64,000 nt of DNA from Thermodesulfobacteriota bacterium (lineage in GTDB: Bacteria > Desulfobacterota_D > UBA1144 > Nemesobacterales > CSP1-2): assembly GCA_035559815.1 (NCBI GenBank), contig DATMAT010000012.1:1-64000 (forward strand). Reading direction: 5' to 3'. Below, in pieces: positions 42,922 through 64,000 of the stretch. The stretch's first letter is position 1, and each line of letters starts with the position of its first letter. The notes beneath the pieces were generated by a model. It saw only the letters and a program-made list of their open reading frames with translations, did no database searches and had not been told where the DNA came from. The translations under genes and the position numbers were made by a program.

Positions 42922-43889
<968 letters not shown>

Positions 43890-43900
<11 letters not shown>

Positions 43901-47330: not shown

Positions 47331-48167
47331 TCAAAGCTTATTCCCTCTCGATTCCCACTTAGCCCTGAGTGTAATCCAGAGGGAGAGCAGGATAAACCTG
47401 AGGTCCATCTCCAGGCATTGACGTCTTAAATATATGAAGTCATACCTGAACTTCTGTCTTCTAGAGATATCCCTTGGGGCATAGATCTGGGCTACCCCGG
47501 TAAGACCCGGTCTTATGGAGTGGCGCTTACTGCAACCTGGTATCATTTCAAGCGGAATAGGTCTATTGCCGTTTGAGGGAGACGCCTTTACTTCTATCTC
47601 CGCAGGAAGAAGGGCACGTGGACCCACGATGCTCATGTCACCCTTGAGAACATTCCATAGCTGGGGGATCTCGTCCATGGCCGTGGCTCTCAGCACCCGG
47701 CCGACCCGGGTTATTCTTTTGTCGTTTTGCCCCGCTTGAAGTGGGCCGAAACGTACATCAGAGTCTGCCACCATAGTGCGAAACTTGTAGGTTCTAAAAA
47801 ATCTGCCACCTAGGCCAACACGCTCCGAGCAGTAGAATATGGGCCAGCCATCCTCAAGCCAGATAGCCAGGGCGATGATTATGGAGATAGGAAAACTAAA
47901 AATAAGTCCAAGTAAGGATACGGCAATATCCAGGTATCTCTTTAAAGAATACTCCCTGACCCGAACCGTCGTGAATAACCCATGCGTATAGGAGTTATCA
48001 TAACTTCCGTTAAGCTTGGCTGGATAGGTATCAGTAACACTGTAGACAGCCTTATGATTAAACCCGGAAACATCAGCCAGCTCATTAGAGTGGCTGCCAG
48101 AATAAGCGGTGTCCCAGACTGCCCCTATATCTCCATCGGTTATTCGTAGCTGGTCTTCTTTATACAC
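47331..48167 (-). CDS. Initiating sugar-phosphate transferase (monotopic PGT)
   Basis: 278 residues from GTG at 48167, with AAGGAG 7 bases before it. About 75 variable residues are followed by one reentrant membrane helix (SLLGLIFSFPISIIIALAIWL), then the catalytic small PGT core: FYCSERVGLGGRFFRTYKFRTM, DEIPQLWNVLKGDMSIVGPRAL and SIRPGLTGVAQI. It transfers a sugar phosphate to undecaprenyl phosphate, beginning the repeat unit. It lacks the four-helix N-terminal domain of WcaJ/WbaP. Palindromes lie 128-160 bases upstream. Confidence 0.93.
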   Translation of the reverse strand: MYKEDQLRITDGDIGAVWDTAYSGSHSNELADVSGFNHKAVYSVTDTYPAKLNGSYDNSYTHGLFTTVRVREYSLKRYLDIAVSLLGLIFSFPISIIIALAIWLEDGWPIFYCSERVGLGGRFFRTYKFRTMVADSDVRFGPLQAGQNDKRITRVGRVLRATAMDEIPQLWNVLKGDMSIVGPRALLPAEIEVKASPSNGNRPIPLEMIPGCSKRHSIRPGLTGVAQIYAPRDISRRQKFRYDFIYLRRQCLEMDLRFILLSLWITLRAKWESRGNKL

Positions 48168-48376: not shown

Positions 48377-49132
48377 TTATCTTGTGAAGAACTGGGGAAT
48401 CTTGGAGAGGTTCTTAGACAATAGCGTTAGAATAGCTAGGTTTAGACCATTAATTCTGAGGGCCCTATAGTCCTCGACTGTTTTTCTCACCAAGCCCTTT
48501 ATGCTACCGTTACTTATTCCACCCGTCCTCATCTTGATTAAAACCTCCGGTATATAGCAGGTAGTTATCTTTTGCCTGGCCAACAACCTCAACACCATCT
48601 CATAATCGGCGGCGATTTTGAGGTTCGTATTAAAGCGACCGTATTTTTCATAAACTTCCCTTTTTACAAAAAAGGTGGGATGTGGAGGCATCCAACCCCA
48701 CCTGAGCATACCTTCCTTATATTCTCCGGCCCTCCAGTATCTTATGAGCCTGCTGCCGTCTTTATTCACATAAACCAGGTCGCCATAAGCGCTTTGAACA
48801 TCGTACCGGGCAAAGGCCTCCGCCATTTTTTCTATAACCCTGTCGCTGGCGTAGAAATCATCGGAGTGTAAGATCCCGACGACATCTCCCGTCGCCATTC
48901 CTATACCTTTATTGATGGCATCATAAATTCCCTGGTCGGGTTCGCTTATCCATTTTGAAATTCCGTGCTCATATTTTTTTATAACGTCCAGAGTCCCATC
49001 CGAAGATTTGCCGTCAATCACTATGTATTCTAGATTTTTATAAGTCTGCCCCAGCACACTTTTTATACACTGTTCTATGTTGATTACATTATTAAAAACA
49101 ACAGTTAATATGGAAATCTTCATGTTCGCCAT
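48377..49132 (-). CDS. GT2-family glycosyltransferase
   Basis: 251 residues. GT-A fold: ISILTVVFNNVINIEQCIKSV near the start, YIVIDGKSSDGTLDVI, the donor segment ISEPDQGIYDAINKGIGMATGD and the metal-binding region HSDDFY (DxD-like). It has no membrane segment. WcaA-like glycosyltransferases of this pattern extend lipid-linked sugars in the cytoplasm. Donor unknown. An internal Met4 could also be the start; neither has a good Shine-Dalgarno. Confidence 0.9.
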   Translation of the reverse strand: MANMKISILTVVFNNVINIEQCIKSVLGQTYKNLEYIVIDGKSSDGTLDVIKKYEHGISKWISEPDQGIYDAINKGIGMATGDVVGILHSDDFYASDRVIEKMAEAFARYDVQSAYGDLVYVNKDGSRLIRYWRAGEYKEGMLRWGWMPPHPTFFVKREVYEKYGRFNTNLKIAADYEMVLRLLARQKITTCYIPEVLIKMRTGGISNGSIKGLVRKTVEDYRALRINGLNLAILTLLSKNLSKIPQFFTR

Positions 49133-49296
49133 GTTAAAGTGGGGATATTGTATTGCGAAGTAGTTTGTACCCGGCCGTTCAGATTATCAGTGCGGGCAAA
49201 AGTGGTTAATGCAAACAAAACCCATATTTCCCCCGAGGACATATCCTAAAACCGCGGTTGTTGATTCATTATCGGGATATACTAAGCCCCCCGGTT

Positions 49297-50037
49297 TCAG
49301 CCAAAGCGAGCAAATAATTCAAAGCGATTCTGGCCGAGAAATTCAATCTTATAGCCAATGGCTCTAAGAAAATGGAGAAGTGGAACTTCGTTTTTCTGGT
49401 CGTCGATGGCTATAAAAAGCCTAGGCTTATATTGCCTTAAAGTCCTCTCCGCGCCGAGTATCACATCCAGCTCAGCCCCCTCCACGTCTATTTTAATTAT
49501 GTCAGGAGGCTTTATAACCCCGGCAGCAAGGAGATTATCCATACTATCCACTGGCACGATAAGTTTTGTCGGTTCTTGGCTTAAACATCCTACTTCCGAG
49601 CCACAACTATCGCTGAAAAACATATACTCTCTTTTCCTTCCCAATGCTATCGGAGAAATAGCCACATTAGTAACGCCATTCATATCCATGTGTTTTCGCA
49701 AGTACACAAGATTCCTGGGATTCGGCTCGAATGCATATACAAATCCGTCGCTGCCACACAATCTTGCGAATAGTAGTGTAAAAAACCCGACATGGGCCCC
49801 TACATCGTATGCTATCATACCATTCCGGGAATGACTCGAAATGGCCTTTTGCTTGAAGAATTCATAGTCTCCGAACCAGTATCCATGAACACCACTGCCC
49901 ACTATCCAGTAATAGTTCCTATTGTATCCCTGTAGGATTTTTATCCGGGAAGATTTAGGAATAACATTAAGTGGAAATCTCAATACCCTCCCGATAAAGC
50001 TTTTATTGTCTATTTTAGAAACATTAAAGACCTTCAT
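49297..50037 (-). CDS. FkbM-family methyltransferase
   Basis: 246 residues. MIAYDVGAHVGFFTLLFARLCG is the SAM motif I of FkbM proteins, followed by VYAFEPNPRNLVYLRKHMDMNG and VDSMDNL...PDIIKIDVEGAELDVILGAERTL. It is probably an O-methyltransferase acting on a sugar of the polymer. It lies 28 bases after the beta-helix gene. An AGGGTG site lies before the ATG. Confidence 0.88.
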   Translation of the reverse strand: MKVFNVSKIDNKSFIGRVLRFPLNVIPKSSRIKILQGYNRNYYWIVGSGVHGYWFGDYEFFKQKAISSHSRNGMIAYDVGAHVGFFTLLFARLCGSDGFVYAFEPNPRNLVYLRKHMDMNGVTNVAISPIALGRKREYMFFSDSCGSEVGCLSQEPTKLIVPVDSMDNLLAAGVIKPPDIIKIDVEGAELDVILGAERTLRQYKPRLFIAIDDQKNEVPLLHFLRAIGYKIEFLGQNRFELFARFG

Positions 50038-50064
50038 ATGGCACCCTGGAGCCGTTGCCCATAT

Positions 50065-52086
50065 TCATCGAATCTCTTTTAAAAGCGAGTTATAAATCTC
50101 GACCCCCGTCGCACTCACGCTGGCACTATAGTTCATGTCGATACTGTTAGCCCGTTCATCGATATTTTTTATCCTAGCATCGTCCGGTATTCCTCGGCCG
50201 AAAATCCAATCTCCGACCTGGAAATTATCGATGCTAGAAACATTGGTTATTCGATTACTAGCCTTGGCCAAGTCCCCAGTTGCTATTATGTTATTAACAA
50301 AGTTGGCACGAAGTATGTTAACCGATGATGGAGTGTAGGATGTATCAATGTCCGTCGCTAGCAATTTTGACGTTATCATATTACCGTCGACAGCCGACAC
50401 CCGTAATACTGGCAGCAACCAGGTGTACCCGAGCATTGAACGCTCCCTGGGCTGGAAAAAACTGAAGAGAAAGTGACGTAGGAACTCGACGTAGTCAAAG
50501 CTTCTTCCCGAGGGAGCATAACGGGATTGCCAATATAAATAATCTCCCACTTGAAACTTTTCTGGATAGTCAGTCTTAAAAGAGATGCTGTTTGAACTGA
50601 GAGCGATGCCGGATATAGCCACACTAACATGATGAGAAGGTCTTTTAATTTGAAACCTTTTTCCGGTATCGGACTCGATTATTTCATATGTGTTTGGGGA
50701 TATGGACAATCTCCTTGGAACAACCTTGGTTTTATGGGTATCAGATATCGCTTTTAAGGGCGGGTCAAAGGAAAGAACCGAGCGCTGGACGTTCAACTTG
50801 TATTCACCGTACAGTTGAGAATTTACAAATCGGCTGGGGGCTTTGGTCAAATCTACAAAAGAGGAATTTTCCAGCGTTATACTACCGTTACCATCGGCGA
50901 CCATATTAAACAACCCCTCATACGTATAGAAATTGCAAGAGGAAAACTTGAGAATAGTGAACGTAGCCACGTATCTACTAGGCCTATAATTATCAAACCG
51001 GTAAGCATATAGATTGGAATTGGATATGGTAGCAGGGGACGTGACGGACGAAACTCCCTCACCAAAGAGGCCTATTTCCGCAAAACTTTCCGCATCGATC
51101 TTGTCTATGTTTACCGCTCCCCGGTCTCCGGTTGATTCGAAAAGCCGGAAAGATAAGCCGAAGGTGCAGTTGTAAACGAAAGGAAACTGCCCGTTCCGCC
51201 TTCCGTGCCTTAAAGTAGTGATTGCAACATATGAGCCGGCAATACCAACGTTCTCCAAAGCCACATTTCTTTGCTGTGCACCCCCAACCGAGACTCCAAA
51301 TGTGTTGTGGATGATCGTGCTGTCTTTTATCTTGATATTTTCCGCGTTTTCATCGTTATCCGAGGGCTTTACAGCGACACCGACGACAAAATAAGAGATA
51401 GTTACATCTTCGATAACAACTGCGGAGCTGTGCGACCGATTATAGGGGTCATTAGGATAGGCATCCCAGGGCGACTCTCCGGAATATGCATCTATAGTTA
51501 TTCCAGCATACGGAGAGTGCCTCTTGTTAGAACACCCGGACGAGACCCAGTCATCAATGTTTGTGGCGATGATATTTTTAGCGGCCATATCTTGTACCAT
51601 CTTTCCCGGCGCGATGTTTTTCCCGGTTATCCTCAAGCCTTTTATCCGCACACCCCTAGCCCCCTGAATGTTAATGGCCGGTCTATCCGTAAAGTCAGCC
51701 TTTAATTCAACGTATCCAAGAAAACTAGGTAAACCTTCTATGCTGATACTTATATATTGGTTATCTCCATAGCCTGCTTTGATCGTATCGGTAATCCGGT
51801 ATCGGCCTGCAGGAAAAAATACCTTAGCCATTCTGTTGGTTATGGCATGGTCGATAGCCGATTGTATAGCCTTTGTATCGTCGGCTTCTCCATCCCCCTT
51901 GGCCCCAAATAGCCGAACATCGGCAACCTGTCTTCTATCGTGCTCCAGTTCTCCACTTATGAGCAATCCAGTAAATGTTAGCCTCTCACTCCCAACCATA
52001 AAGACTGCAAGAAAGATCTCAAACAATAACAAATAAACCAAGGCTGAGAATATGCATATTTTTTTCACGGTTGGGCCTGGAGGCAA
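50065..52086 (-). CDS. Pectate-lyase-superfamily right-handed beta-helix protein
   Basis: 673 residues from TTG at 52086; a GTG at 52068 (VKKICIF) is an alternative. Neither has a good ribosome site. A signal-type hydrophobic segment (FSALVYLLLFEIFLAVFMVG) is followed by VRLFGAKGDGEADDTKAIQSAIDHA and VFFPAGRYRITDTI, the Pectate_lyase_3/GH28-type start of a beta-helix. Many Asn/Gly-rich coils follow. The C-terminal part (about 470-670) is a separate beta-rich region. In polysaccharide loci such exported helices serve as lyases, epimerases or binding proteins. The substrate could be the cell's own polymer; catalytic residues cannot be identified. Confidence 0.8.
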   Translation of the reverse strand: MPPGPTVKKICIFSALVYLLLFEIFLAVFMVGSERLTFTGLLISGELEHDRRQVADVRLFGAKGDGEADDTKAIQSAIDHAITNRMAKVFFPAGRYRITDTIKAGYGDNQYISISIEGLPSFLGYVELKADFTDRPAINIQGARGVRIKGLRITGKNIAPGKMVQDMAAKNIIATNIDDWVSSGCSNKRHSPYAGITIDAYSGESPWDAYPNDPYNRSHSSAVVIEDVTISYFVVGVAVKPSDNDENAENIKIKDSTIIHNTFGVSVGGAQQRNVALENVGIAGSYVAITTLRHGRRNGQFPFVYNCTFGLSFRLFESTGDRGAVNIDKIDAESFAEIGLFGEGVSSVTSPATISNSNLYAYRFDNYRPSRYVATFTILKFSSCNFYTYEGLFNMVADGNGSITLENSSFVDLTKAPSRFVNSQLYGEYKLNVQRSVLSFDPPLKAISDTHKTKVVPRRLSISPNTYEIIESDTGKRFQIKRPSHHVSVAISGIALSSNSISFKTDYPEKFQVGDYLYWQSRYAPSGRSFDYVEFLRHFLFSFFQPRERSMLGYTWLLPVLRVSAVDGNMITSKLLATDIDTSYTPSSVNILRANFVNNIIATGDLAKASNRITNVSSIDNFQVGDWIFGRGIPDDARIKNIDERANSIDMNYSASVSATGVEIYNSLLKEIR

Positions 52087-52157
52087 GGGTCAACGATGGC
52101 GGTCAACTAAGGGTGGTAGGACCGGTGGGATGGGAAGCAAGCCCAACCACCGACGTT

Positions 52158-52817
52158 TTACCGAGCTGGCTTAATCCAGATAGCAGTATCCCAAACGCCG
52201 TTAGTAGTCCAGATATACCGCCAGTTGCTAACCTGGGCATTGAACCCTGCCCAATAAGGAGAAGCCGGCCCTTGCCAATCGGTTCGTGAACTGGGGGAGC
52301 GAGTTTGGCAGGGTAAATACCAATTGACGTTGTCTATCATCAAAACTCCACCCGGCTTGAGCAGGGGCAAGACGGAGAAGGCACAAAGGTCACGCAAGGC
52401 TCCGTCCACCAGGACGAAATCCAGGGAATGATGTGAGAATTCATCAACAATTCTTACGTAGCTGGAATTCAGGCCCTGGTCTAAATCCGATTTATATAAA
52501 TAGGTTATGTTGTCTAAATGCAATTCATCTATTTTCCTAACTAGCCTATTGAACCATTCCTCACTATGCTCGACGCTGGTTAAATGCTTAATCCTACGGG
52601 TCAGCCAGAGGGTCGAGCGGCCGGAGCCCCACTCCAAGCCTATGTGGTCAGTGCTAAGCCAGGATTGCAAGAATTCAACAGCCGTTTTGGTCAGCCAGGG
52701 AGCGTCCGGGTTCTTAAACTGAAACCACATTACCGCAAGACGGTCGTAGATGTAACGGGGGGTCCAATGTCCGTATGAATGCCGGAGACGTCGAGGAATA
52801 AACCCGTTAATTTTCAT
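52158..52817 (-). CDS. Class I SAM-dependent methyltransferase-like protein
   Basis: 219 residues. DHIGLEWGSGRSTLWLTRRI carries a motif-I-like Gly-rich loop, then LTSVEHSEEWF and LDFVLVDGALRDLCAFSVLPLLKPGGVLMIDNVNW. This is a SAM-binding fold, probably a sugar or lipid methyltransferase, though some relatives have no proven activity. It begins 2 bases after the GT2 stop at 52820, implying translational coupling. Confidence 0.78.
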   Translation of the reverse strand: MKINGFIPRRLRHSYGHWTPRYIYDRLAVMWFQFKNPDAPWLTKTAVEFLQSWLSTDHIGLEWGSGRSTLWLTRRIKHLTSVEHSEEWFNRLVRKIDELHLDNITYLYKSDLDQGLNSSYVRIVDEFSHHSLDFVLVDGALRDLCAFSVLPLLKPGGVLMIDNVNWYLPCQTRSPSSRTDWQGPASPYWAGFNAQVSNWRYIWTTNGVWDTAIWIKPAR

Positions 52818-52819
52818 TC

Positions 52820-53788
52820 TTATATTCTTGTTTTAGATTCTTGAAGAGCGGTAGAGACCTTACCGGACTCTAGCCTTCCACTCTCTACACCAGATTCGAG
52901 CATTTCGCAGATTATTTCTCCTACATTTCTATCCTCTGCCCTGGCTCTCATTTGAACCTCATATATTTTTGCATCCACCAGGAATCGATACCAGAGACCC
53001 TGCAGGAAGTGCCATATTAACCCCTCTTTCCCGTCTAAAAATCCGAGCCTTATTACATATCTGTAGATAAAGTACAAAAAAGGCCTAAGGAAGAGTGGCA
53101 TATTGGCGTAGATTGTTTGCTTGAGCCACCTCTTTCTCTGCTCTTGGGTCCCAAACAGCTTAGTCGGCACGGTGTCGTAAATCACAAATTTGTGTTTAAG
53201 GTTAAGAAGATCTATAGCTTCTCTGGTAGCGTAGCTATTGTGTTTGCCAATCCACCAATGTAGTTTGTTGTGATTATCATCGATAATATCGTTCTCCAAG
53301 AATAGGACTTTTCCCTCCCTGATTTTTATATGTTCGTCCATCCACCTTTCTTCACAATGGGCTTTTCCCCTTCTCCATATTCTCAAAAGCCATGTAGGAT
53401 AATAACCTCCGTGCCTTATCCATCTGCCCATGAAGTAAACCCTTCTTTTCATGTATAACCCAGTTACCTCGCCGCTTAAATTGGGCAGTTTTTCTAAAAT
53501 TTCGTTCTTTAATTCTGGAGTCACTTTCTCGTCTGCATCCAATCGCAATATCCATTCGGTTTTAAAAGGTAGATTACATAATGCCCAATTAAGCTGTCTT
53601 GCCTGGTTTTCAAAAGGGTGACTATATATATTGTTCGTGTACTTTTTGACAATTTCTAAAGTTCTGTCCGTAGAATAGGAATCCAATATAAATAAATGAT
53701 CTGTCCAATCAAACACACTCTGGAGACAAGCCTCAACATTGTTCTCTTCGTTGTAGGTTAGGACGATAACGGAGATTGAAGGTTTCAT
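52820..53788 (-). CDS. GT2-family glycosyltransferase (WaaE/KdtX-like)
   Basis: 322 residues. ISVIVLTYNEENNVEACLQSV, DHLFILDSYSTDRTLEIV, FENQARQLNWAL and WILRLDADEKVTPEL show the GT-A fold with the DxD motif. YMKRRVYFMGRWIRHGGYYPTW, LLRIWRRG and HCEERWMDEHIKI are shared with WaaE-like beta-glycosyltransferases. Hydrophobic stretches near 230-250 may attach it to the membrane. Acceptor is unknown. Confidence 0.9.
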   Translation of the reverse strand: MKPSISVIVLTYNEENNVEACLQSVFDWTDHLFILDSYSTDRTLEIVKKYTNNIYSHPFENQARQLNWALCNLPFKTEWILRLDADEKVTPELKNEILEKLPNLSGEVTGLYMKRRVYFMGRWIRHGGYYPTWLLRIWRRGKAHCEERWMDEHIKIREGKVLFLENDIIDDNHNKLHWWIGKHNSYATREAIDLLNLKHKFVIYDTVPTKLFGTQEQRKRWLKQTIYANMPLFLRPFLYFIYRYVIRLGFLDGKEGLIWHFLQGLWYRFLVDAKIYEVQMRARAEDRNVGEIICEMLESGVESGRLESGKVSTALQESKTRI

Positions 53789-53810
53789 AATCCGTCCTTT
53801 AACCGTCTAA

Positions 53811-54455
53811 TCACTTTATAGCTTCTACGAATAAGCTATAGTCCTTGTATTCGTCCTCGGAGGGTTTTATCCTCTCGTAGGTCTCGGCATCCAGGAATGA
53901 GTTTCCCCAGCTTAACTTATGGATTCTCTGAAAGCCCAAACTATTCAATATCTCCTTCATGAAATCAAAATCAAATGCCATTTTGTGCTGGGCATCACAG
54001 AACAGAAAATTGGTAAATCTACCTCCCATACTCTTGAAACTTCTCGGAAAATCTAGAAAAAAATCATAATCTTTCTCTAGATAGGCCTTTGTGGATTTCT
54101 CTAAGTCCGGAACAACTATCCTTAAGACTCCATCCTTTTGGAGCACCCTATAAAACTCTTTAAGAATATTTGATAACTCGTCAGGATAAAAGTGTTCCAG
54201 AGTACCACCACTATATATAAACTTCACCGAGTCATTGCTAAAAGGTAACCTGACCCTCACATCGTATAGCAAATCCGACTTGGCTAAGGGGTTAGCATCT
54301 ATATTCACCAACCCCGGTATTTTTTTCTTTCCGCAGCCTATATGAAGACCTAAGTCCTTGGACTTATCAAATTTTATTCTAAATAAAGGGTAAGACACCA
54401 AGGAATATAGACCTACGCCGTAAAATAATAAGTCCTTCCATCTTTGATGTACCAT
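53811..54455 (-). CDS. SAM-dependent methyltransferase
   Basis: 214 residues from ATG at 54455, chosen because GGGAG lies 6 bases upstream; the longer frame would run into the preceding gene by 55 bases. LGLHIGCGKKKIPGLVNIDANP is motif I, FSNDSVKFIYSGGTLEHFYPDELSNILKEFYRVLQKDGVLRIVVPDLEK carries the Glu-His motif and the post-motif strand. It probably methylates a sugar nucleotide or glycan. One of five methyltransferase genes in a row. Confidence 0.85.
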   Translation of the reverse strand: MVHQRWKDLLFYGVGLYSLVSYPLFRIKFDKSKDLGLHIGCGKKKIPGLVNIDANPLAKSDLLYDVRVRLPFSNDSVKFIYSGGTLEHFYPDELSNILKEFYRVLQKDGVLRIVVPDLEKSTKAYLEKDYDFFLDFPRSFKSMGGRFTNFLFCDAQHKMAFDFDFMKEILNSLGFQRIHKLSWGNSFLDAETYERIKPSEDEYKDYSLFVEAIK

Positions 54456-54496
54456 AATTCGCTCCCTTTGACTCGACCGGGATAACCTAGAAACCT

Positions 54497-55186
54497 CTAC
54501 AAATTCCCATCTAAGCCAATCTTCTGAGCCACTATTACCATCGATTTCCACAAATAAGGGAATCTTCCGCTGCCAAGAAAACCAACCGGCTCAAAAGCGG
54601 TGTCTTCGAGCATGGTATAAAGAGTGTGCTTAGAGAAGAACTTTATGTGCCCACCTTCCCATAGAGGATTAAAGTGGAGGTCAAATTTATTCAGCAAGGC
54701 AATAGCCAAGGTTTTCAAATAGCCGTTATAAGGCGTGGTGACAATTAGGTACCCTTTTTCCTGGAGCCAATAGTTTATGTTTTCCAAGTATTTTTTGGGA
54801 CTGTATAAATGCTCTATCACTTCTGTCGACAAAGCCAAATCATAACCGCCGCTGGGAAACGATTCCGGAAGTTTTTTATCATAGCAGTCGTGGACCGCAA
54901 ATTTTTCCTTAATCTCCGAAAATTCGTCTTTAGAAAGCATTATTCCATCCTCGGCTATATCAAAACCCCAGATATTCCGGTAACCGTCAGTATAAAGCTC
55001 ATGCAGGATATATCCGCCGCCGCAGCCGACATCCAGAATTTGAGCCGTTTTAGGTACCTTAAGCTCATCCAAAATTCTTCTAATGCTTTTTATGAGATAG
55101 CCATGAGCATGGACTCTTGATTCATTCCAGGCCCAATTTCTAATAAATCCTTTATCCGGTGGAATAATAGAAGGCTCGCTCTTCAT
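54497..55186 (-). CDS. SAM-dependent methyltransferase
   Basis: 229 residues from ATG at 55186, fixed by an ATGA overlap with the stop of the preceding gene. ILDVGCGGGYILHEL is motif I, then IWGFDIAEDGI, YDLALSTEVIEHLYSPKKYLENI and the post-I segment GYLIVTTPYNGYLK. This is a Ubie/Coq3-like class I fold. Substrate unknown. Translational coupling suggests its product is needed with that of the neighbouring methyltransferase. Confidence 0.87.
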   Translation of the reverse strand: MKSEPSIIPPDKGFIRNWAWNESRVHAHGYLIKSIRRILDELKVPKTAQILDVGCGGGYILHELYTDGYRNIWGFDIAEDGIMLSKDEFSEIKEKFAVHDCYDKKLPESFPSGGYDLALSTEVIEHLYSPKKYLENINYWLQEKGYLIVTTPYNGYLKTLAIALLNKFDLHFNPLWEGGHIKFFSKHTLYTMLEDTAFEPVGFLGSGRFPYLWKSMVIVAQKIGLDGNL

Positions 55187-55848
55187 GGTCTTACCGCAAA
55201 TAATATGATATGTGCTCCCAAGAAAGGGCATAGACTCCCCAGGAATTCAAATATCCTCCCTATGTACTTGCTTCTGCGGGATGATATTAATATATGAGAT
55301 GAGGTAACATGTCTAACGCTAAAGCCGCAACTTCTAACCATCCTGTATAGAGTGTCTATGTCATAGAAATGGTAATGGTATTGCTCATAGGCGAAGTAGG
55401 GCATTTTCCCGAAGGGAAATAAAATACGATTAACCAGAAAAAATAGGTTGGGAGTAGTTAATGCTAAGACTCCCCCCGGTCGAAGTACCTTGTAGCATTC
55501 CCTTAAAAATTTCTCATCATCAAATAGATGCTCAATTACCTCACCGGCAAACAGGATATCGAATAGCTTTCCGTCGAAATCCGGCAGTCCTTGGTTACAA
55601 TCGTATCTGTAGAAGGTTATATCCCCCTCGCCGGTTCTGTCGTTTATGTCGACTGCGTATTTTTCTACATTCTTGTACTCGTCAAGGTTATCGATTAAAC
55701 CGCCTCTAGCATATCCTATCTCCAGAAGAGAAATCTTTCTTCCCGGGTCCAGGTATCGATTTCTCCGTAGCCAATTCCTTACCTTCAAGACCCGTCCCCG
55801 GTCCGGGACCCGGAATTCATCGAAAATCCTCTGCCTATGGTCTAACAT
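55183..55848 (-). CDS. SAM-dependent methyltransferase
   Basis: 221 residues from ATG at 55848, with GGAGGAG 7 bases upstream; the in-frame TTG six bases earlier is not used. KISLLEIGYARGGLIDNLD is a motif I variant (GYARGG in place of GCGxG), then VDINDRTGEGDITFYRYDCNQGL, LFAGEVIEHLFDDEKFLRECYKVLRPGGVLALTTPN. The changed loop may alter SAM binding. It ends in the ATGA overlap with the next gene. Confidence 0.85.
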   Translation of the reverse strand: MLDHRQRIFDEFRVPDRGRVLKVRNWLRRNRYLDPGRKISLLEIGYARGGLIDNLDEYKNVEKYAVDINDRTGEGDITFYRYDCNQGLPDFDGKLFDILFAGEVIEHLFDDEKFLRECYKVLRPGGVLALTTPNLFFLVNRILFPFGKMPYFAYEQYHYHFYDIDTLYRMVRSCGFSVRHVTSSHILISSRRSKYIGRIFEFLGSLCPFLGAHIILFAVRP

Positions 55849-55939
55849 GAGCAAACTCCTCCACCTGCCTTAATCACTATATAAGCAACCTTGTCTATAT
55901 GGCCATACCGGTTTCTTCCGCGCCCGTCATACGCTCCTC

Positions 55940-56761
55940 CTACGCACGCTTCTGGGCAATTATCGAAAAGGTATTCTCCATTCCCAATAACTCCCCTATG
56001 TGTTGAAATACCAAAGCTTGGGTACTGAAGTAACACACGATTTTGCAATCAAAACCCTTCTCTTCGAAAAGGTCGGTGATAGCCTCTTGGTCAACGCCGT
56101 TTCTAACCGCATGGTATTCCACGTTGTCCGCCGGACAATCGCTCAGGTAAATCCCCCGGCTGCGCCGGACGCGCCTTTTCAATCCTTCCACCAAGTCTCC
56201 CCTAAAGACACGCCAGGAGAAGTAGGCCACCTTGTTGAATGCAGTGGTAAATCCTCCAAGCGAATCATGCCGCAGCGGATCCTGAAAAGAAAAGAATTGT
56301 CCATGCGGGGTCAGAAGCGTAATTGCTTCCCGGATCATGCCCAGATAGTCCGGTATATGGTGCAGGAATGAATTCACTACGATAATATCATACGAGTTAT
56401 TATTCGATTTGAGGGTTTCGTTTATGTCCTCACATCGCACCTGAAGCCTGTCCCCGAAACGCTCGCACCTACTCCGCAAAGCGCTTAATTGACTCTCGGA
56501 AATATCGACTGCGGTCACCCTTGCTCCGAGCTCCAGAAAGGGCAAAGTGGCCGAACCCTCACCCGCTCCTAGGTCTAATACATTCGGATTGCCTGTATAT
56601 ATAGTCGCAAAATCATAAACCCCAACCAGCAATTCGCCGTAGAGCTTTCTCAGAGAGGGGTGTTTTAGGTGGGGTGCACCGTCAATATATCCTCTGGTTG
56701 CCTCTTCATCATAAACGGCGGCATTAGCTAGGGCGGCCACCCAATTTATTCTTTCGTCCAT
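55940..56761 (-). CDS. SAM-dependent methyltransferase
   Basis: 273 residues from ATG at 56761 (MDERINWVAALANAAVYDEEA); a TTG at 56818 is possible and neither has a strong Shine-Dalgarno. NVLDLGAGEGSATLPFLELGARVTAVDISESQLSALRSRC is motif I, NSFLHHIPDYLGMIREAITLLTPHGQFFSFQDPLR the post-I part. A C-terminal helical extension of about 90 residues may bind substrate. The 91 bases to the next gene hold no clear element. Confidence 0.85.
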   Translation of the reverse strand: MDERINWVAALANAAVYDEEATRGYIDGAPHLKHPSLRKLYGELLVGVYDFATIYTGNPNVLDLGAGEGSATLPFLELGARVTAVDISESQLSALRSRCERFGDRLQVRCEDINETLKSNNNSYDIIVVNSFLHHIPDYLGMIREAITLLTPHGQFFSFQDPLRHDSLGGFTTAFNKVAYFSWRVFRGDLVEGLKRRVRRSRGIYLSDCPADNVEYHAVRNGVDQEAITDLFEEKGFDCKIVCYFSTQALVFQHIGELLGMENTFSIIAQKRA

Positions 56762-56862
56762 TGTCTTTGTTTTCCCAAGACGGTGATAACTATCCGGTGA
56801 TAGGGGGTTTCGACCCAAATTCTATTGTTCTTTCCAACTCCCGTCCACCGTTTTAGCGGTAG

Positions 56863-57585
56863 CTAAATTTTTCTGAATACTCCTAGAATATTAGAACGAA
56901 TAAACTTGAGGATCTCCGCAGAATTAACGATTCTTTCGTATAATACCCCCAGAAGGAAAGCAAAGGTATTAAACACCAGATAAGACGGCTCTTTTTCGAT
57001 TAGTTCCAGGCGTTCAGTGGCAAAGCCTTTTTTTTCTAAGATACTTCGTAAGAGCCCGGGTCTATTCATTTTGTAAATTACCGGGAAGGTCTTTTCTTCC
57101 GTGTCTATGCTTCGGACAAAGTTAGCCAGTAGTGATTTGGAACGGTTAGGCACGATTCGCGCAATGGAAGGGACGTAGTGATAAAGATTCGGAGTTCTAA
57201 ATATGAAATATCCCCCCTTTCTGAGCACTCGCCTAACCTCCGTTAAGAATGCATCGGGGGCATCGACGTGCTCAAGCACAAAGTCGGTGTATATAAAATC
57301 AAAGGAGCACTCCTTGAAAGGCAAAAAATAGGCGTCGCCTATGACTTTAAAATCGACAATTCTATTTTCGCTTATTTCCGAGTCCACATCCAACCCTACC
57401 ACCAGCCTATCCTTTCCCCTTAATGAGTAATTATGGGGCTTTCCCCTTCCCGCTCCAGCCCCGAGGTCCAAAACTAACGCCCCAGGCTGGCAATATGCTT
57501 TTAGGAGGTTCACAAACTGAGTAGTACCGTCGATCCATCCTTTCTTAGGATTGTAAAAAAACCCAAACAGCCTCGGATTAACCAT
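56863..57585 (-). CDS. SAM-dependent methyltransferase
   Basis: 240 residues. VLDLGAGAGRGKPHNY is motif I, VVGLDVDSE, then FDFIYTDFVLEHVDAPDAFLTEVRRVLRKGGYFIFRTPN. It starts 64 bases after the GT4 stop. The C-terminal hydrophobic stretch (AFLLGVLYERI) may contact the membrane. Substrate unknown. Confidence 0.86.
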   Translation of the reverse strand: MVNPRLFGFFYNPKKGWIDGTTQFVNLLKAYCQPGALVLDLGAGAGRGKPHNYSLRGKDRLVVGLDVDSEISENRIVDFKVIGDAYFLPFKECSFDFIYTDFVLEHVDAPDAFLTEVRRVLRKGGYFIFRTPNLYHYVPSIARIVPNRSKSLLANFVRSIDTEEKTFPVIYKMNRPGLLRSILEKKGFATERLELIEKEPSYLVFNTFAFLLGVLYERIVNSAEILKFIRSNILGVFRKI

Positions 57586-57649
57586 ATTTGAACTTCCGGT
57601 ATATCTCGTTCTAAAATGTTAAGATTCTTCTCTATCCTCGATATGGAAT

Positions 57650-58837
57650 TCAGCCGGGTCTTATTATCTCTCGGTAAACCTTTATAACCATATCCGCTAC
57701 CTTATCTATATCGTAATATTCTTCCACCATCTTTCTTCCATTTGTGCGGACTTCTCTTTTCAACTCCTCGTTATCGAGTAGAGCTCTTATTCCCCTGCTT
57801 AAACTATCCGGGTTGGTTTCCACGATGATACCCCCCCTATTCCGTTCAACCTCCCGGTGAATCCCTACTTTATTCGAGATAACCACCGGTATTCCACAAG
57901 CCATCGCCTCCACTACCGCCATCCCAAAATTCTCCGAGTAGGAAGGCAAGACGAAGACTTCGGCATCGACAAAAGCCTCCAGTTTGTCTCTTTCCCTGAG
58001 CATTCCGGTAAATATCGTCCTTTCTAAAAGGCCGACATCCTTCAACCGTCTCTTAACTTCCTCTTTGAACCCCTCGTTGCCTTCGTTCGCCCCTACTATC
58101 ACCAGATATAAATCTTTATATGCTTTGGCGATTTCTCCAAATGACTCTACCAATATATCAAGCCCTTTCTTGATGTTTATACGGCCCAAGAATAAAATAT
58201 ATTTTCTATTCTTTAAGGCCGCATATCTATTCTTAAAGGAACCCCTCCGGGGCAATTCCTCGAAACCGGACAAGTCAAATCCAATCGGAACCACAAAAGC
58301 TTTATTTCTTATATCAAGGAAACCTATAGCGTTTTCTTTCTCGTCTTGAGTGGTGAAGTGGATTGCAGAAGCTCTTTTAATATAGTATTTCGCGATGAGG
58401 TTATAATAGAACATTTTCTTATTTTTGGATTTTATACCAATCGCCTCCGGGTAGATAGAACCATGTGGAGAAAGTATATATGGTTTTTTATGCAATAGGC
58501 TGGCTATACCGCCGGCTAGAACGGGGAAATTCCATACTGAAGTTATATGCACTAGGTCATAAAATCTAGTATCTTTTAAGAGCTCCAAAAATATCTTTGG
58601 AGAAAACGTATAGCGCTCATAGCCGTAACACCTAAAATATCTAACCCTTATGCCATCTAATTCCTGCCACTCATCTCTAGGAATAGACTTCCCATTTTCC
58701 AAACCGGTATCCGTGGTGAATACATCGACATCTATTCCCTTCTTAGCTAACGCCTTATTCAATAGATGAACGGCCTCTATAGGGCCGCCATATTTGAAAG
58801 CTGGAAAGTAGGAGGGAGTTATGTGAAGCACTCTCAT
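57650..58837 (-). CDS. GT4-family glycosyltransferase
   Basis: 395 residues from ATG at 58837; a TTG four codons earlier is less likely. MRVLHITPSYFPAFKYGGPIEAVHLLNKAL is the acceptor half, YILFLGRINIKKGLDILVESF and the EX7E block VLPSYSENFGMAVVEAMACGIPVVIS the donor half. GT-B fold enzyme acting on the lipid-linked repeat unit. Donor not predictable. Confidence 0.9.
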   Translation of the reverse strand: MRVLHITPSYFPAFKYGGPIEAVHLLNKALAKKGIDVDVFTTDTGLENGKSIPRDEWQELDGIRVRYFRCYGYERYTFSPKIFLELLKDTRFYDLVHITSVWNFPVLAGGIASLLHKKPYILSPHGSIYPEAIGIKSKNKKMFYYNLIAKYYIKRASAIHFTTQDEKENAIGFLDIRNKAFVVPIGFDLSGFEELPRRGSFKNRYAALKNRKYILFLGRINIKKGLDILVESFGEIAKAYKDLYLVIVGANEGNEGFKEEVKRRLKDVGLLERTIFTGMLRERDKLEAFVDAEVFVLPSYSENFGMAVVEAMACGIPVVISNKVGIHREVERNRGGIIVETNPDSLSRGIRALLDNEELKREVRTNGRKMVEEYYDIDKVADMVIKVYREIIRPG

Positions 58838-58973
58838 CGAACTTCGCAATATCTAGCTTTAATTCCTTATATATACTTTTAAGAGTCGTTCCGTTTGTGG
58901 AAAGAGCCGTGAACAAGATGAAAGAACCAACCGGCAAATATAGATTCCGTTATTTAAACAGTGCCTGCCGTCT

Positions 58974-60464
58974 TTATTTATGCCTTGTAACGAAAGGTAA
59001 AAATGCCACCAATAATATGAAATAGAATCTTAACAAGCCAGAGAACCAACCGGCAAAGGTATCCCCTACTATGATCGTCTGCAATGTGAATGCATACACC
59101 ACCGTTCCCAGCGTATTTGGCTTCCCATTTCTAAAAAAGTAAAGAAAGATAAACCGGTATAAAAAGCCATAAATGAGGGGAACAAAAATCCCAAACCACC
59201 CAAAATTAATAAACATCTCTCCTATCCAGGTCATGCCGACCGAAGTGCTTTCATCGAGTGGGTGAAGAAACCCATAATCCCTTCCAAATTCGTTTGCAAA
59301 ACTAACCGAAGGCTTTCCCGGCCAGAGAACCCTGGGAATTAAAGAGGGAAAAAACAGGATATAGGTAGACCCGAATTTAAAGTCGCTAACACTGGGCGTA
59401 TTATCGACTATCACGCCCACTATGGAGGCATAGTTTAACCTCTCTCCAAAGACGCTAAAAAGAACCTCCCCTACCATAGATTTATTCGAGCCGAAGAACG
59501 ATTTCCAATAAATTTTAAACCCTTCCATAAGATCAAAAAAAACATCGCCGGTATAGTTAAGCCTGTATGTGTTGATTAAAGGAAAGATAAAAAATATGAA
59601 TATAATAGAAGCTATGATGAAAAGCTTGAATGGAGTCTTTTTCTTGATTGAATAAATTATCAACAAAATAAAGATAGGCAAGATAGCCTTTGCCTTACTC
59701 CCTATCGGAAAATTAAAAGCCATCTCCGATGCCAATATCAATATCGTGACCCATAAGAGCGCAATTCTTTTGTTTTTTAGATATTCGGAATAGACGATGG
59801 ATAGGGCTAATAAAGGAAACAGCGACCCAAACCCTAAAAACTGAGCCAGATATGCATAATCGGTGTTGATTAAATCGCTTCTCCCGGCCCCTACAAAATA
59901 ATAGGCGCCAATTTCTATCAAAAACAGCCTGGACAACCAACCTATCAAGAGAAGTACTACAATCACTAAGGGCAGCCTTCTGATGCTCAATTCAAACTTA
60001 TGTATGTTTGGTATGGATTTTATTGCCCTTCCGGTCAAGGCTGCGGCAAGTTTGCTATAGTCAAAAGCGTAATACCCAAACAGAAAGAATAGAAAGCATA
60101 ATATGCTGAAACTCAATCCTTTATTTAGAGCGGTTAAGTCAAGCCCGGCGTTGTAACCCAACCTATTAAACGACTCCGGATACAACAATACGTATAACGA
60201 ACCTAGGCAGAACATTATAAAATAAAGCATAGACACGCTTAAGACCGGGTTAGTGACCTCGCGGACCCTTTCCTTGAAGAAAGGAATAGCACAAAGAAAT
60301 GCAAGAAAACTTATCTCCAGGATCGTGAGAATCTCGTCATAATCAAGCTGGCTAACTAAGAGGAGGGAAATCAACAAAGGGATCGTTACTGCAACAGAGA
60401 GAACCGCTCCGGATAGCTTCTCTTGTCGAAGAATCCTTAATGGTTGTCCAAAATGTGCCGGCAT
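58974..60464 (-). CDS. wzy: O-antigen/oligosaccharide repeat polymerase (Wzy-like)
   Basis: 496 residues with about 11-12 hydrophobic segments and a large loop in the second half (about 300-400). RLNYASIVGVIVDNTPSVSDFKFGSTY and LIPRVLWPGKPSVSFANEFGRDYG are characteristic of O-antigen polymerases. MTWIGEMFINFGWFGIFVPLIYGFLYR follows. It joins flipped repeat units on the periplasmic side. Low sequence conservation is normal for Wzy, so the call rests on topology plus these motifs and on its Wzx neighbour 46 bases away. Confidence 0.8.
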   Translation of the reverse strand: MPAHFGQPLRILRQEKLSGAVLSVAVTIPLLISLLLVSQLDYDEILTILEISFLAFLCAIPFFKERVREVTNPVLSVSMLYFIMFCLGSLYVLLYPESFNRLGYNAGLDLTALNKGLSFSILCFLFFLFGYYAFDYSKLAAALTGRAIKSIPNIHKFELSIRRLPLVIVVLLLIGWLSRLFLIEIGAYYFVGAGRSDLINTDYAYLAQFLGFGSLFPLLALSIVYSEYLKNKRIALLWVTILILASEMAFNFPIGSKAKAILPIFILLIIYSIKKKTPFKLFIIASIIFIFFIFPLINTYRLNYTGDVFFDLMEGFKIYWKSFFGSNKSMVGEVLFSVFGERLNYASIVGVIVDNTPSVSDFKFGSTYILFFPSLIPRVLWPGKPSVSFANEFGRDYGFLHPLDESTSVGMTWIGEMFINFGWFGIFVPLIYGFLYRFIFLYFFRNGKPNTLGTVVYAFTLQTIIVGDTFAGWFSGLLRFYFILLVAFLPFVTRHK

Positions 60465-60510
60465 GTTGATGCTCGCAAAAATCCCGGCCTAGCAAAGACC
60501 GGAATTGGCT

Positions 60511-61839
60511 TTATCTAACCTCGGTCCCCACCTTGTAATACCCAAAAAGATTTCTTATAGCCTTACAAAACTGCCGCACCGTCGCAGGAGTGAGCCCCCA
60601 GCACTGCCGGAGTTCTACCCCATGGTTTTGTTTTAGATAAAAACCCAGATAGAATAAAGACGCCATATTCGCCATAATTAATGCGACGGCTACCCCTGCC
60701 ACATATAGCCTGGCGGAAAGGGGCCATACTATGACCAAGAATAAAATCACCGAGAGGCCTTGAGCCGTTGCCCCCGGTAAACCCTCTCCGAATCCCCTAA
60801 GACTCCTTATCACTATTGTCTTGAGGGCAATAAGGAAATAGGCCAAGAGAAGAAAAACTGAAAGCATGCTAGCGGGCCTAAAATCTTCACCGAAGAGCAA
60901 GGGGACAAGCTTGGGCGCCAAAACCATAAGAGGCACCGTAATCACAAACAGCAGAAACATAGCCTGCCGTATTCCCTCCATTAGTTTAAAGGTTCGTAGA
61001 TTTTTCTCCTGAGTGTTGACCAAGGTCGGAAACAATACGGTGTGAAAAGTACTGCCCACCAGATTCAATGCGGAAGCGGCGACGGTAAAAGCAGCCATGT
61101 ATAAACCAATTATCTTATTATCCCATAGCCTTAGAATCACAAATATATCCGCTTGATTGGCCGCTATTATTAAAAGGGTAGCCAGATGAAAACTCCATCC
61201 GTCTCTCAACAGCCCCCAGGCCTCGGAAAAGCTAGGCCTATATAAAAGCGCCGTCCCAGCCAAGAAGACCCGGATAAGCGCCGCGATTACGGTAGCTGAC
61301 GCATTCATGGCCACTATCCAAGCCACGGTTATATGCCCGGTAATCCAAAGAAGCACCAATCCCAGAAGATAAATAACTGGACCCAGCAGGCGCAGCCTAT
61401 TATATATGGAAAATCGAAGTCCCCCCTGGTCGATGGCCAGAAGGGTCAGGCCAATAAAATTGAATGGGATGAAAACTAGCAGATAAAGCTTGCTGATGTT
61501 CCAGAGTTCCTGGCGCTTAATGCCCAGCAAGGATGGAATAGCCATATAACCTAGGGTGGTAACAATAAAGGACAAACAAATGGCCAACCAGAAAGCCGTC
61601 GAAATTATCTCACTGGCCCTCTCCGGCCAGCGGCCAATCCGATAGGTGGTAGCCTCGGGTAGACTCATAATACCTATTCCAGCAGTCAATTGAGACCAAA
61701 AAATCACCGCGGCTAAAGCTCCCCGCCCCTCCGGGAGAAGAAATCGGGCAGTCAAAACACCGGTGATAAAGCCACAAGCTACAATAACCAGGTTGGTTAT
61801 AAAAGTTCCCATCCAGGCCCACAGTACGCCTCTGGACAA
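60511..61839 (-). CDS. wzx: Oligosaccharide flippase (Wzx-like, MOP/polysaccharide exporter)
   Basis: 442 residues with about 12 membrane segments spread along the whole length. FITGVLTARFLLPEGRGALAAVIFW near 20-44 is the MATE/PST-type N-terminal repeat. LFPTLVNTQEKNLRTFKLMEGIRQAMFLLFVITVPLMVLAPKLVPLLFGEDF is the typical mid-protein block. It moves the undecaprenyl-linked repeat unit across the inner membrane. Followed by wzy, as in Wzx/Wzy-dependent loci. Confidence 0.87.
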   Translation of the reverse strand: MSRGVLWAWMGTFITNLVIVACGFITGVLTARFLLPEGRGALAAVIFWSQLTAGIGIMSLPEATTYRIGRWPERASEIISTAFWLAICLSFIVTTLGYMAIPSLLGIKRQELWNISKLYLLVFIPFNFIGLTLLAIDQGGLRFSIYNRLRLLGPVIYLLGLVLLWITGHITVAWIVAMNASATVIAALIRVFLAGTALLYRPSFSEAWGLLRDGWSFHLATLLIIAANQADIFVILRLWDNKIIGLYMAAFTVAASALNLVGSTFHTVLFPTLVNTQEKNLRTFKLMEGIRQAMFLLFVITVPLMVLAPKLVPLLFGEDFRPASMLSVFLLLAYFLIALKTIVIRSLRGFGEGLPGATAQGLSVILFLVIVWPLSARLYVAGVAVALIMANMASLFYLGFYLKQNHGVELRQCWGLTPATVRQFCKAIRNLFGYYKVGTEVR

Positions 61840-61900
61840 TTCAATCTCCCTAAATCCGACTACACGCTGAAAGGTTTGGACGGGCTATTCATCCAGGCAG

Positions 61901-63085
61901 TTAAAAGCATCCTGAACCCTCGAGTATCCCCCCGATAGTTCTCTCATAAGAGTAACTTTCAATTATCTTTAGCGATTCCCTACCCAAGGCTTTTCTCGTC
62001 TCCGGGCTCTCGATGAGCATTTCCAAAAAACCAGCCAGTTGAGCAATATCGCCCGTTTTGAATACAAACCCATTCTCCCCGTGTTTTACCAAGTCCTCTC
62101 GACACCCGACCAAATCGGACACAATTACAGGAAGTTCAAAATTCATTGCTTCGTTAACCACTAATCCCCAGGTTTCACCCAAACCGGAGGGAAGAACGAA
62201 GATATCCGCCATAGTGTAATAATAGGGAAGTTCCGTCTGGTTCTTGATCCCGACGAAATAAACGTTCTTTAATTTTTTCTCCACCACGTAGTCTTCCAAT
62301 TCTTTCCTCAAGTAGCCGTCTCCCACAAATATCAGGGTTTTCTTATCCGATTCCACTTTTTCAAAAGCCCTAAGAAGGTCAAAGGGTCTTTTCTTATCGA
62401 TGAGAATCGCCACAAAAATAACCACAACTCCGTCTTCATTTAATCCCAGTCCCTTTCTCAATTCATTCCTTTTATGCTTAAGCCTTAGATATTCGCCGTG
62501 GAATCTTTCGTTTTCTACACAGTGAGGCGCAAAGATTAGCTTCCAATCCGGAACATTATAGTATTTATAAAAATTTCTGTTTGCCTCTCCCACATACAAG
62601 AATACGTCTACAAATTTAAAAATCCCATATTGTAAGACACCCTTTTTAATCCACCTCTTCCAATCGGGCTTTAGCAGCTCATGAGACAGGGGATTGTCTC
62701 CCCTCAACATTACTTTTTTGCCAAAAAACTTTGCCGCTACCAGCGCCAGGATATTGGTGAAATAGTTCCAGCCGTACACGATAACGACATCGTACTCTCC
62801 CTTTCTTAATTCATTTACTATTCCCAAATTCATTAATCCGAAAAACACAGTGAATACGGAAGGACTTGGTGAGTAGTTCTTCAAGAATTTGTACTTATAG
62901 CCTTCGAGGAGAGGAATATCCCAGGCCGGAATAGTACCCACTTCCGAATGATGTCTTTCTTGGATTCCATAGCTCTCACAGTATAAAACGGTCAGTTCTA
63001 TACCGTTTGCAGAAGATAACTTTCTGAAAAGTGGAGCTAAATACTGTATGGGATGGGATATTAGAAATGCTACTTTTTTATTCAC
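61901..63085 (-). CDS. GT4-family glycosyltransferase
   Basis: 394 residues. VAFLISHPIQYLAPLFRKLS opens the acceptor half. VVVIFVAILIDKKRPFDLLRAFEKV starts the donor half and VLPSGLGETWGLVVNEAMNFELPVIVSD is the EX7E block. A typical GT-B enzyme of surface-polysaccharide clusters. Its first 8 bases overlap the end of the preceding gene, so translation is linked. Sugar donor unknown. Confidence 0.9.
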   Translation of the reverse strand: MNKKVAFLISHPIQYLAPLFRKLSSANGIELTVLYCESYGIQERHHSEVGTIPAWDIPLLEGYKYKFLKNYSPSPSVFTVFFGLMNLGIVNELRKGEYDVVIVYGWNYFTNILALVAAKFFGKKVMLRGDNPLSHELLKPDWKRWIKKGVLQYGIFKFVDVFLYVGEANRNFYKYYNVPDWKLIFAPHCVENERFHGEYLRLKHKRNELRKGLGLNEDGVVVIFVAILIDKKRPFDLLRAFEKVESDKKTLIFVGDGYLRKELEDYVVEKKLKNVYFVGIKNQTELPYYYTMADIFVLPSGLGETWGLVVNEAMNFELPVIVSDLVGCREDLVKHGENGFVFKTGDIAQLAGFLEMLIESPETRKALGRESLKIIESYSYERTIGGILEGSGCF

Positions 63086-64000
63086 TGACTCCCAGAATAT
63101 CCTTTAGAGTTTCTTTGTATTTCTCATAGGCGAAATCTCTCTTCACCTTTTCCCTTCCGTAATTTCCCATCCTAAGTCTTAAGTTCTCATCCCGGTAGAG
63201 TAGTTTTATTCTCTCCACAAGCTCATCTAGATTACGCGGCGACACTATAAAACCATTTTTCCCCTCTTCAACTGCGTCAACCGAGCCATCCTCGTCACCC
63301 ACTAAGATAGGCTTTCCACAAGCCGCGGCCTCGATAGGCGTGAGCGGCAATCCTTCTCCTTCGTATTTTCCTAATCTAGTGACCAGGACAAACAAGTCAG
63401 CCATTCGATAAAAATCAACAAGTTCCTCTTCCTTTACCCTTCCGGTAAAAGTTACCCTGCTTTCTAAATTCATATCCTTTACCAGCGATTTTAGGTATGA
63501 CACCAATCTTCCACCCCCCACTATCACATACACTATATGCTCCGGAAGCTCTTTCAGAGCCCTGATTACAAGCTCATGTCCCTTATAGCCATCATCGACC
63601 CTGCCCACGGTAAGAATTATAAATTTACTCTCCGGTATTCCGTGCTTTTCCATCAATTGGACATTCTTAGGAGCAGGCTTAAACCTGTCGACATCAACGC
63701 AGTCATGAAGCAAAAAGATTTTATCTTTATCCACGCCCAGGGCACCCTTACAGTAATTAAGGATAAAGTTACAATCCCCTATTATTTTATCCGCGTATTT
63801 CAAAGAAATTTTTCGAAAGGAATTTAAAAAACCCCATGTTTCAAAACCATATACATTCACAATGTAGTTAATGCCCAATACACTCTTTGCCAATAAACCT
63901 ATCGATGACAGATTTACCAGGTTTATAATCAAGAGGTCTATTTTCTTCTGTCTCATAAATTTTATGGCCTGGAGGGTAAAATCAATTTTACGTAAGACAC
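63078..64000 (-). CDS. GT4-family glycosyltransferase (5' end beyond window)
   Basis: The frame is open to the window edge: codons upstream of the ATG at 63956 read VLRKIDFTLQAIKFMRQKK, which fits a GT4 acceptor half, so the real start is outside and the gene is partial. IIGDCNFILNYC, FIILTVGRVDDGYKGHELVIRAL and the donor block GKYEGEGLPLTPIEAAACGKPILVGDEDG are clear. The apparent 292-residue protein would be too short for a complete GT4. Sugar donor unknown. Confidence 0.88.
   Translation of the reverse strand, partial: VLRKIDFTLQAIKFMRQKKIDLLIINLVNLSSIGLLAKSVLGINYIVNVYGFETWGFLNSFRKISLKYADKIIGDCNFILNYCKGALGVDKDKIFLLHDCVDVDRFKPAPKNVQLMEKHGIPESKFIILTVGRVDDGYKGHELVIRALKELPEHIVYVIVGGGRLVSYLKSLVKDMNLESRVTFTGRVKEEELVDFYRMADLFVLVTRLGKYEGEGLPLTPIEAAACGKPILVGDEDGSVDAVEEGKNGFIVSPRNLDELVERIKLLYRDENLRLRMGNYGREKVKRDFAYEKYKETLKDILGVSE

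Follow-up and report, generated by a model that had tools for sequence, protein, structure and literature searches.

A run of five class I methyltransferase genes in a predicted exopolysaccharide locus of a Thermodesulfobacteriota bacterium

Why does a single polysaccharide locus carry five methyltransferase genes in a row, and what may their products modify? This question is raised by a stretch of 64,000 nucleotides from a Thermodesulfobacteriota bacterium (assembly GCA_035559815.1, contig DATMAT010000012.1, positions 1 to 64,000; hereafter the window), in which five consecutive open reading frames (ORFs) for class I S-adenosylmethionine (SAM) methyltransferases, MT1-MT5, occupy 53811-57585 on the minus strand without internal stops. 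We consider it fairly likely that the run serves to decorate with methyl groups the product of a Wzx/Wzy-type exopolysaccharide locus, that each enzyme O-methylates one hydroxyl, and that the block grew by separate capture of its genes; the surface polymer is probably methylated at several positions. It is the density of methyltransferases that is unusual here, the type of system being already known.

The run of five methyltransferase genes

The five genes and the names used for them are as follows.

56863..57585, minus strand: MT1, class I SAM methyltransferase, 240 aa, motif I DLGAGAG (PF08241, 57.1 bits)
55940..56761 (longest ORF to 56818), minus strand: MT2, class I SAM methyltransferase, about 273 aa, motif I DLGAGEG (PF13649, 64.6 bits)
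55183..55848, minus strand: MT3, class I SAM methyltransferase, 221 aa, motif I EIGYARGG (PF13489, 55.7 bits)
54497..55186, minus strand: MT4, class I SAM methyltransferase, 229 aa, motif I DVGCGGG (PF13489, 79.7 bits)
53811..54455, minus strand: MT5, class I SAM methyltransferase, 214 aa, motif I HIGCGKK (PF08241, 29.5 bits, covering the C-terminal half of the model only)

A sequence-only reading of this DNA had described five class I methyltransferases in a row at these positions, with differing motif I sequences and an ATGA coupling between two of the genes, and each of these points was borne out. The ORFs are intact, all five proteins pass the cut-off of at least one Pfam methyltransferase family, the glycine-rich motif I is present in five distinct versions, and MT3 and MT4 overlap by 4 bases (ATGA) when the likelier starts are taken. 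These starts (54455, 55186, 55848, and, less surely, 56761) are predictions, and the longest ORFs appear to overstate some of them. The intergenic gaps within the run range between -4 and 101 bp, followed by 22 bp from MT5 to a glycosyltransferase gene, GT2a, and 2 bp from GT2a to the gene at 52158. Apart from the ATGA overlap, every gap between the glycosyltransferase gene at 57650 and the gene at 52158 measures 2 to 101 bp. The GC contents of the five genes are mixed (0.386 to 0.494) and were not used as evidence. Scans of positions 49000-62000 for promoters (16 against 23.4 expected) and terminators (13 against 14.1 expected) were uninformative on the presence of an operon.

The PF08241 family has 40 matches in the 3.97 Mb of the genome, which corresponds to approximately 0.04 per 3.8 kb if they were evenly scattered, and five were observed. 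Since methyltransferases cluster in polysaccharide loci, same-strand runs in comparison stretches represent a fairer control. We used 31 such stretches, 25 of which contain an MT4 homologue and two of which are other loci of the same genome; L041, L042, and L083 are pieces of one locus of the genome G020, with L083 overlapping the other two. In contrast to the five consecutive genes of the window, the longest same-strand run in the 31 stretches was three (L085, from the same genome), as counted with a profile that was seeded with MT1-MT5, which divergent methyltransferases elsewhere may escape, and in stretches that may be short enough to cut runs. Runs of two occurred five times, and one of these, in L039, resembles one gene split over two frames. 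The run of five tops this sample, in which stretches are few and MT4 carriers are overrepresented.

The run of three in L085 (7322-10903, contig C24) includes one methyltransferase within an open frame of 696 aa. Another methyltransferase of the window is found at 10195-11952, where a class I methyltransferase domain is fused to a sugar-nucleotide epimerase (PF01370) in a protein of 585 aa.

Separate origins of the five genes

The sequence-only reading proposed phylogeny as the means to distinguish duplication from separate capture, and the results obtained point to separate origins. In BLASTP comparisons among the five proteins, the best pair was MT3 and MT4 (28.6% identity over 185 residues), and MT2 did not match any of the other four below E 0.09. 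In a tree of 67 rows, many branches of which were long, MT5 grouped with an Anabaena gene that likewise adjoins an MT4 homologue (support 100/89), MT4 with a gene of G020, a genome of the same taxonomic order (100/99), and MT1 with four rows of other families whose sole label was "same domain" (96/82). MT2 and MT3 had no firm placement. Forcing the five into one clade, a group that the sequence-only reading had fixed before the tree was built, lowered the log-likelihood by 154.5 units (approximately unbiased [AU] test, p = 1.9e-52). Tandem duplication of the five is ruled out by their low pairwise identity, the tree, and the AU test. MT3 and MT4 alone may have an old common ancestor.

Regarding relatives in other genomes, MT1 matched proteins in five of 289 at 1e-15 (26-37% identity, with up to nine candidates scored per genome), and MT2 in none of the 289 at the same threshold (up to eight candidates per genome); 20 plasmid records matched MT2, none of which covered 80% of it. 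Relatives of MT3 were found in four of 59 other genomes at E 1e-8 (29-31% identity), a scan of genome contigs for its close homologues yielded 47 stretches with none confirmed, and 12 plasmid records matched it, with 28.6-40.5% identity among the eight listed and mixed contexts in the three examined. No relative of MT5 was detected at 1e-20 in 280 other genomes. An MT5 relative adjoins the MT4 homologue in L037 (Anabaena) and G020, and is located elsewhere in the locus in L036.

A recurring glycosyltransferase-methyltransferase core

The conserved core in which MT4 resides is more interesting than the run itself. It includes the two glycosyltransferase genes that flank the run, GT4c upstream and GT2a downstream.

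57650..58849, minus strand: GT4c, family 4 glycosyltransferase, HpsP/XYAG1-like (NF038295, 270.5 bits, cut-off 550)
52820..53788, minus strand: GT2a, family 2 glycosyltransferase (PF00535, 57.3 bits)

A scan of genome contigs provided 24 loci with an MT4 homologue out of 40 pattern-matching stretches, from Cyanobacteriota, Bacteroidota, Acidobacteriota, Kiritimatiellota, and others, to which G020 was added as the one positive among 56 other genomes of the same phylum, giving 25 loci; neighbors were named by the best-matching window protein at E 1e-8. A GT2a homologue was located no more than two genes from MT4 in 17 of the 25 loci, a GT4c homologue in 13, and both in 12, namely, ten from Cyanobacteriota and two from Pedobacter; the strict order GT4c-MT4-GT2a was found in nine of the 25. 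In G020, the GT2a homologue is located one gene beyond the two-gene limit. An alignment of 23 of the 26 members of the MT4 family has 35 invariant columns, which include PYLWKSM. In the window, MT1, MT2, and MT3 are situated between GT4c and MT4, and MT5 between MT4 and GT2a; this arrangement resembles a conserved GT4-MT-GT2 core into which four further methyltransferases have been inserted.

GT4c resembles HpsP, of hormogonium polysaccharide, and the exosortase-associated XYAG1, with full-length matches to both models (270.5 and 220.2 bits, respectively); its cyanobacterial counterpart in L018 is recognized by the two models as well. GT4c differs from these equivalogs in that it scores under both cut-offs (550 and 400) and in that no exosortase match was found in this genome. 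The two Pedobacter loci also carry a NodU homologue, approximately 52% identical to that of the window and separated from GT2a by one gene, and, in L019 (Oscillatoriaceae), a sulfotransferase homologue lies beside the GT4-MT4-GT2 core.

A tentative extension of these findings, which we regard as possible but somewhat doubtful, is that the HpsP-like GT4, MT4, and GT2a form a horizontally spread cassette for the synthesis of a methylated sugar motif across unrelated bacterial phyla, and that lineages tune this motif by slotting unrelated methyltransferases between the two glycosyltransferases. Complete copies occur in Cyanobacteriota and Bacteroidota and an expanded one in the window, which is the most methyltransferase-loaded case of the sample, and a carbamoyltransferase, sulfotransferase, or exosortase is sometimes attached. 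We know of no name for it. The core offers a handle for predicting the methylated sugar because the solved polymer of one cultured carrier, such as Pedobacter or Nostoc, would suggest the role of MT4 elsewhere.

Three further observations concern relatives of these genes. An exosortase-like gene (PF09721) is located between the GT4-MT4-GT2 core and the NodU homologue in L017 (9488-10069), the one of the two Pedobacter loci that was scanned. The sulfotransferase at L086:3007-3816 (contig C12, 66007-66816, beyond the window) is 56% identical to that at L019:5934-6716, which is high for two phyla. Among the named MT4 relatives, that of an uncultured Verrucomicrobiae (L039:7965-8608) has the top best-segment identity (56%) and appears to be split over two frames.

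The surrounding locus and the polymer it may produce

The remaining genes of the locus within the window are listed below.

42922..43863, minus strand: GDP-L-fucose synthase-like (Fcl-like) reductase (NF047922, 285 bits, below the cut-off of 500)
44361..45404, minus strand: GDP-mannose 4,6-dehydratase Gmd (TIGR01472, 498.7 bits, cut-off 415)
45484..47208, minus strand: NodU-like carbamoyltransferase (PF02543, 174.2 bits; PF16861, 230.6 bits)
47331..48167, minus strand: priming sugar-phosphate transferase (PF02397, 190.2 bits)
48377..49132, minus strand: family 2 glycosyltransferase (PF00535, 93.4 bits)
49297..50037, minus strand: FkbM family methyltransferase (TIGR01444, 100.5 bits, cut-off 37.7)
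50065..52086, minus strand: pectate-lyase/epimerase-like protein (PF12708, 49.3 bits)
52158..52817, minus strand: weak Methyltransf_24 family protein, 219 aa (PF13578, 27.0 bits, cut-off 26.3)
58974..60464, minus strand: candidate Wzy polymerase, a multi-pass membrane protein suggested by its hydrophobic sequence and position next to Wzx
60511..61839, minus strand: Wzx-type flippase (PF13440, 60.3 bits; PF01943, 43.4 bits)
61901..63085, minus strand: family 4 glycosyltransferase (PF00534, 120.8 bits)
63078..64000, minus strand: family 4 glycosyltransferase that runs past the window end (370 aa in L086; BLASTP similarity to the other two family 4 glycosyltransferases only)

The stretch L086, which covers the 20 kb onward from the window end, encodes an aminotransferase, a hexapeptide transferase, a sulfotransferase, a Wzc-like protein (PF02706), a Wza-like protein (PF02563), and a PF04932 protein. 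Judging from this gene content, the locus appears to be a Wzx/Wzy-type exopolysaccharide locus; it resembles other Wzx/Wzy-dependent loci in its PF02397 priming enzyme, glycosyltransferases, PF13440 flippase, and Wzc- and Wza-like proteins. Besides the priming enzyme, it encodes five glycosyltransferases, which belong to families 2 and 4; one of the five was recognized by BLASTP only. The further methyltransferase at 52158 and the FkbM protein at 49297 pointed out by the sequence-only reading were also recovered, the former barely above its cut-off. The protein at 45484 belongs to the broader PF02543/PF16861 carbamoyltransferase family and fails the NodU equivalog model NF041651 (165.1 bits against a cut-off of 1000).

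Since the five genes are intact, mutually unrelated, and located between glycosyltransferases in a locus with Wzx, Wzc, and Wza components and a Wzy candidate, the reading with the best support is a polymer that carries methyl groups at many positions. From the gene content we infer the following order of steps. The priming transferase and glycosyltransferases would build a repeat unit on undecaprenyl phosphate, and this unit probably includes L-fucose supplied by Gmd and the Fcl-like enzyme. MT1-MT5, perhaps with the Methyltransf_24 and FkbM proteins, would each O-methylate a single hydroxyl in the cytoplasm, either on the lipid-linked unit or on a sugar donor, and the NodU-like, sulfotransferase, and acetyltransferase-like enzymes would attach other groups. 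Wzx would then flip the unit, the Wzy candidate polymerize it, and Wzc and Wza export the product. Five methyltransferases against five glycosyltransferases and a priming enzyme would correspond to roughly one methyl group per sugar, and the block may have grown around the GT4-MT4-GT2 core through the separate capture of MT1, MT2, MT3, and MT5. A fucose-containing surface polymer with several O-methyl groups, including O-methylated fucose and 6-deoxytalose, is found in the O-antigen of Rhizobium etli, a likeness that concerns the description of the polymer. If this reading is true, the polymer is predicted to carry O-methyl groups of several kinds as well as carbamate and sulfate, in a phylum that has been sparsely sampled (57 genomes in the set searched). 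The interpretation offered by the sequence-only reading is retained in part: the multiply methylated polymer is supported, with targets that we deduce from gene content, whereas the methylated cap is disfavored. The proposal that the carbamoyltransferase adds hydrophobic groups is chemically wrong, a carbamoyl ester being a polar group.

Several of the enzymes may instead work one after another on a single sugar, such as in the per-O-methylation of one fucose, and not on different sugars of the repeat unit. A study on the phenolic glycolipid PGL-tb of Mycobacterium tuberculosis describes Rv2954c, Rv2955c, and Rv2956 as dissimilar SAM methyltransferases (241-321 aa, approximately 15% identity) near sugar-moiety genes, each adding one O-methyl group, at positions 2, 4, and 3 of one fucose (PMC3594219). 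The likeness to the window lies in the presence of several mutually dissimilar SAM methyltransferases beside glycan genes; the mycobacterial enzymes are three and serve one terminal fucose of a glycolipid, whereas five are present here in a Wzx/Wzy polymer locus. Candidate fucose donor genes are present, with Gmd above its cut-off and the Fcl-like enzyme below; however, a terminal fucose offers three free hydroxyls, fewer than the number of enzymes, and the five glycosyltransferases and priming enzyme make other targets available, and we consider sequential action on one sugar to be unlikely. A methylated cap that ends chain growth, of the WbdD or WsaE type, appears highly improbable. MT2 weakly matches WbdD structures (E 7.7e-4 to 9.7e-4), but this match covers the common SAM domain only and is outranked by others, including the best solved-structure match of MT2, the D-glucose O-methyltransferase 6uv6 (E 2e-7, also for the SAM-domain part only). 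Moreover, a cap needs fewer than five enzymes. Caps such as WbdD belong to ABC-exported O-antigens; since the locus is of the Wzx/Wzc/Wza type and no Wzt_C match in the genome exceeds the cut-off (the sole match, on another contig, C52, reaches 22.3 bits against 30.4; Wzm was not searched), an ABC-type cap is disfavored.

It is also quite improbable that some of the five act on a lipid, small molecule, or protein and were gathered by chance in a variable locus. The lack of a firm tree placement and of close relatives among the genomes searched for MT2 and MT3, the mixed contexts of the plasmid matches of MT3, and fold comparisons that are uninformative on the substrate speak for this possibility, but all five genes are located between polysaccharide genes on one strand with short spacing, and the adjacent homologues of MT4 and MT5 in L037 and G020 are near glycosyltransferases. 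We give hardly any credence to the view that some of the five are inactive remnants, which the sequence-only reading had named as one of two possible refutations: all genes are full length, and none has a stop or frame break. The ground for it is the motif I of MT3, noted earlier as unusual, in which glycines one and three are kept and the second is replaced by alanine, the sole change. The MT3 alignment has 18 other rows, 16 of which retain this glycine, as do all three plasmid relatives; alanine at this position was found in MT3 only among these sequences. However, the glycine is also absent in L011 (GCYCG) and L004 (GSLPC), and catechol O-methyltransferase is functional with a non-glycine residue there. 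AlphaFold2 predicted a complete class I fold for MT3, with a mean predicted local distance difference test score of 81.5 and a mean of 91 for residues 41-50, which contain motif I, and the model aligned with 1vl5 in VIA-align with a Z of 19.7 and root-mean-square deviation of 2.5 over 162 residues. A Rossmann-like fold was predicted for both proteins modelled, MT3 and MT4. The motif change is a weak ground for inactivity.

Several observations weigh against the multiply methylated polymer. Foldseek (MT3 and MT4) and VIA-align (MT3) returned generic class I methyltransferases with many functions, which do not indicate a substrate, and sequence searches of solved structures with MT2, MT3, and MT5 gave weak SAM-domain matches only and named no substrate. 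Since MT2 has no relatives at 1e-15 in the 289 genomes, only its position links it to polysaccharide. Neither Pfam nor NCBIfam gave a match for the Wzy candidate, a PF04932 protein being present in L086, and the score of the Fcl-like protein is under its family cut-off (285 against 500). Among the 25 MT4 loci, eight lack a GT2a homologue within two genes of MT4 and seven, some of which are cut by contig ends, have neither glycosyltransferase near it; the 12 loci with the full core belong to just two phyla, and the sample is dominated by cyanobacteria.

PADLOC matched six of seven proteins to one model (mad2), which was taken as its methyltransferase part, and gave MT4 a 19.9-bit Type II methyltransferase match. 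In the region 5716-8221 of the window, an asparagine-synthase-like gene that scores 546.5 bits to the XrtA/PEP-CTERM amidotransferase model, under the cut-off of 816.9, is located beside a hexapeptide-repeat transferase, in a genome for which no exosortase match was found. Between gmd and the fcl-like gene, positions 43890-44288 encode a four-helix "23S rRNA intervening sequence" protein (PF05635), and its counterpart in G020 (L042:16819-17193) is 35% identical.

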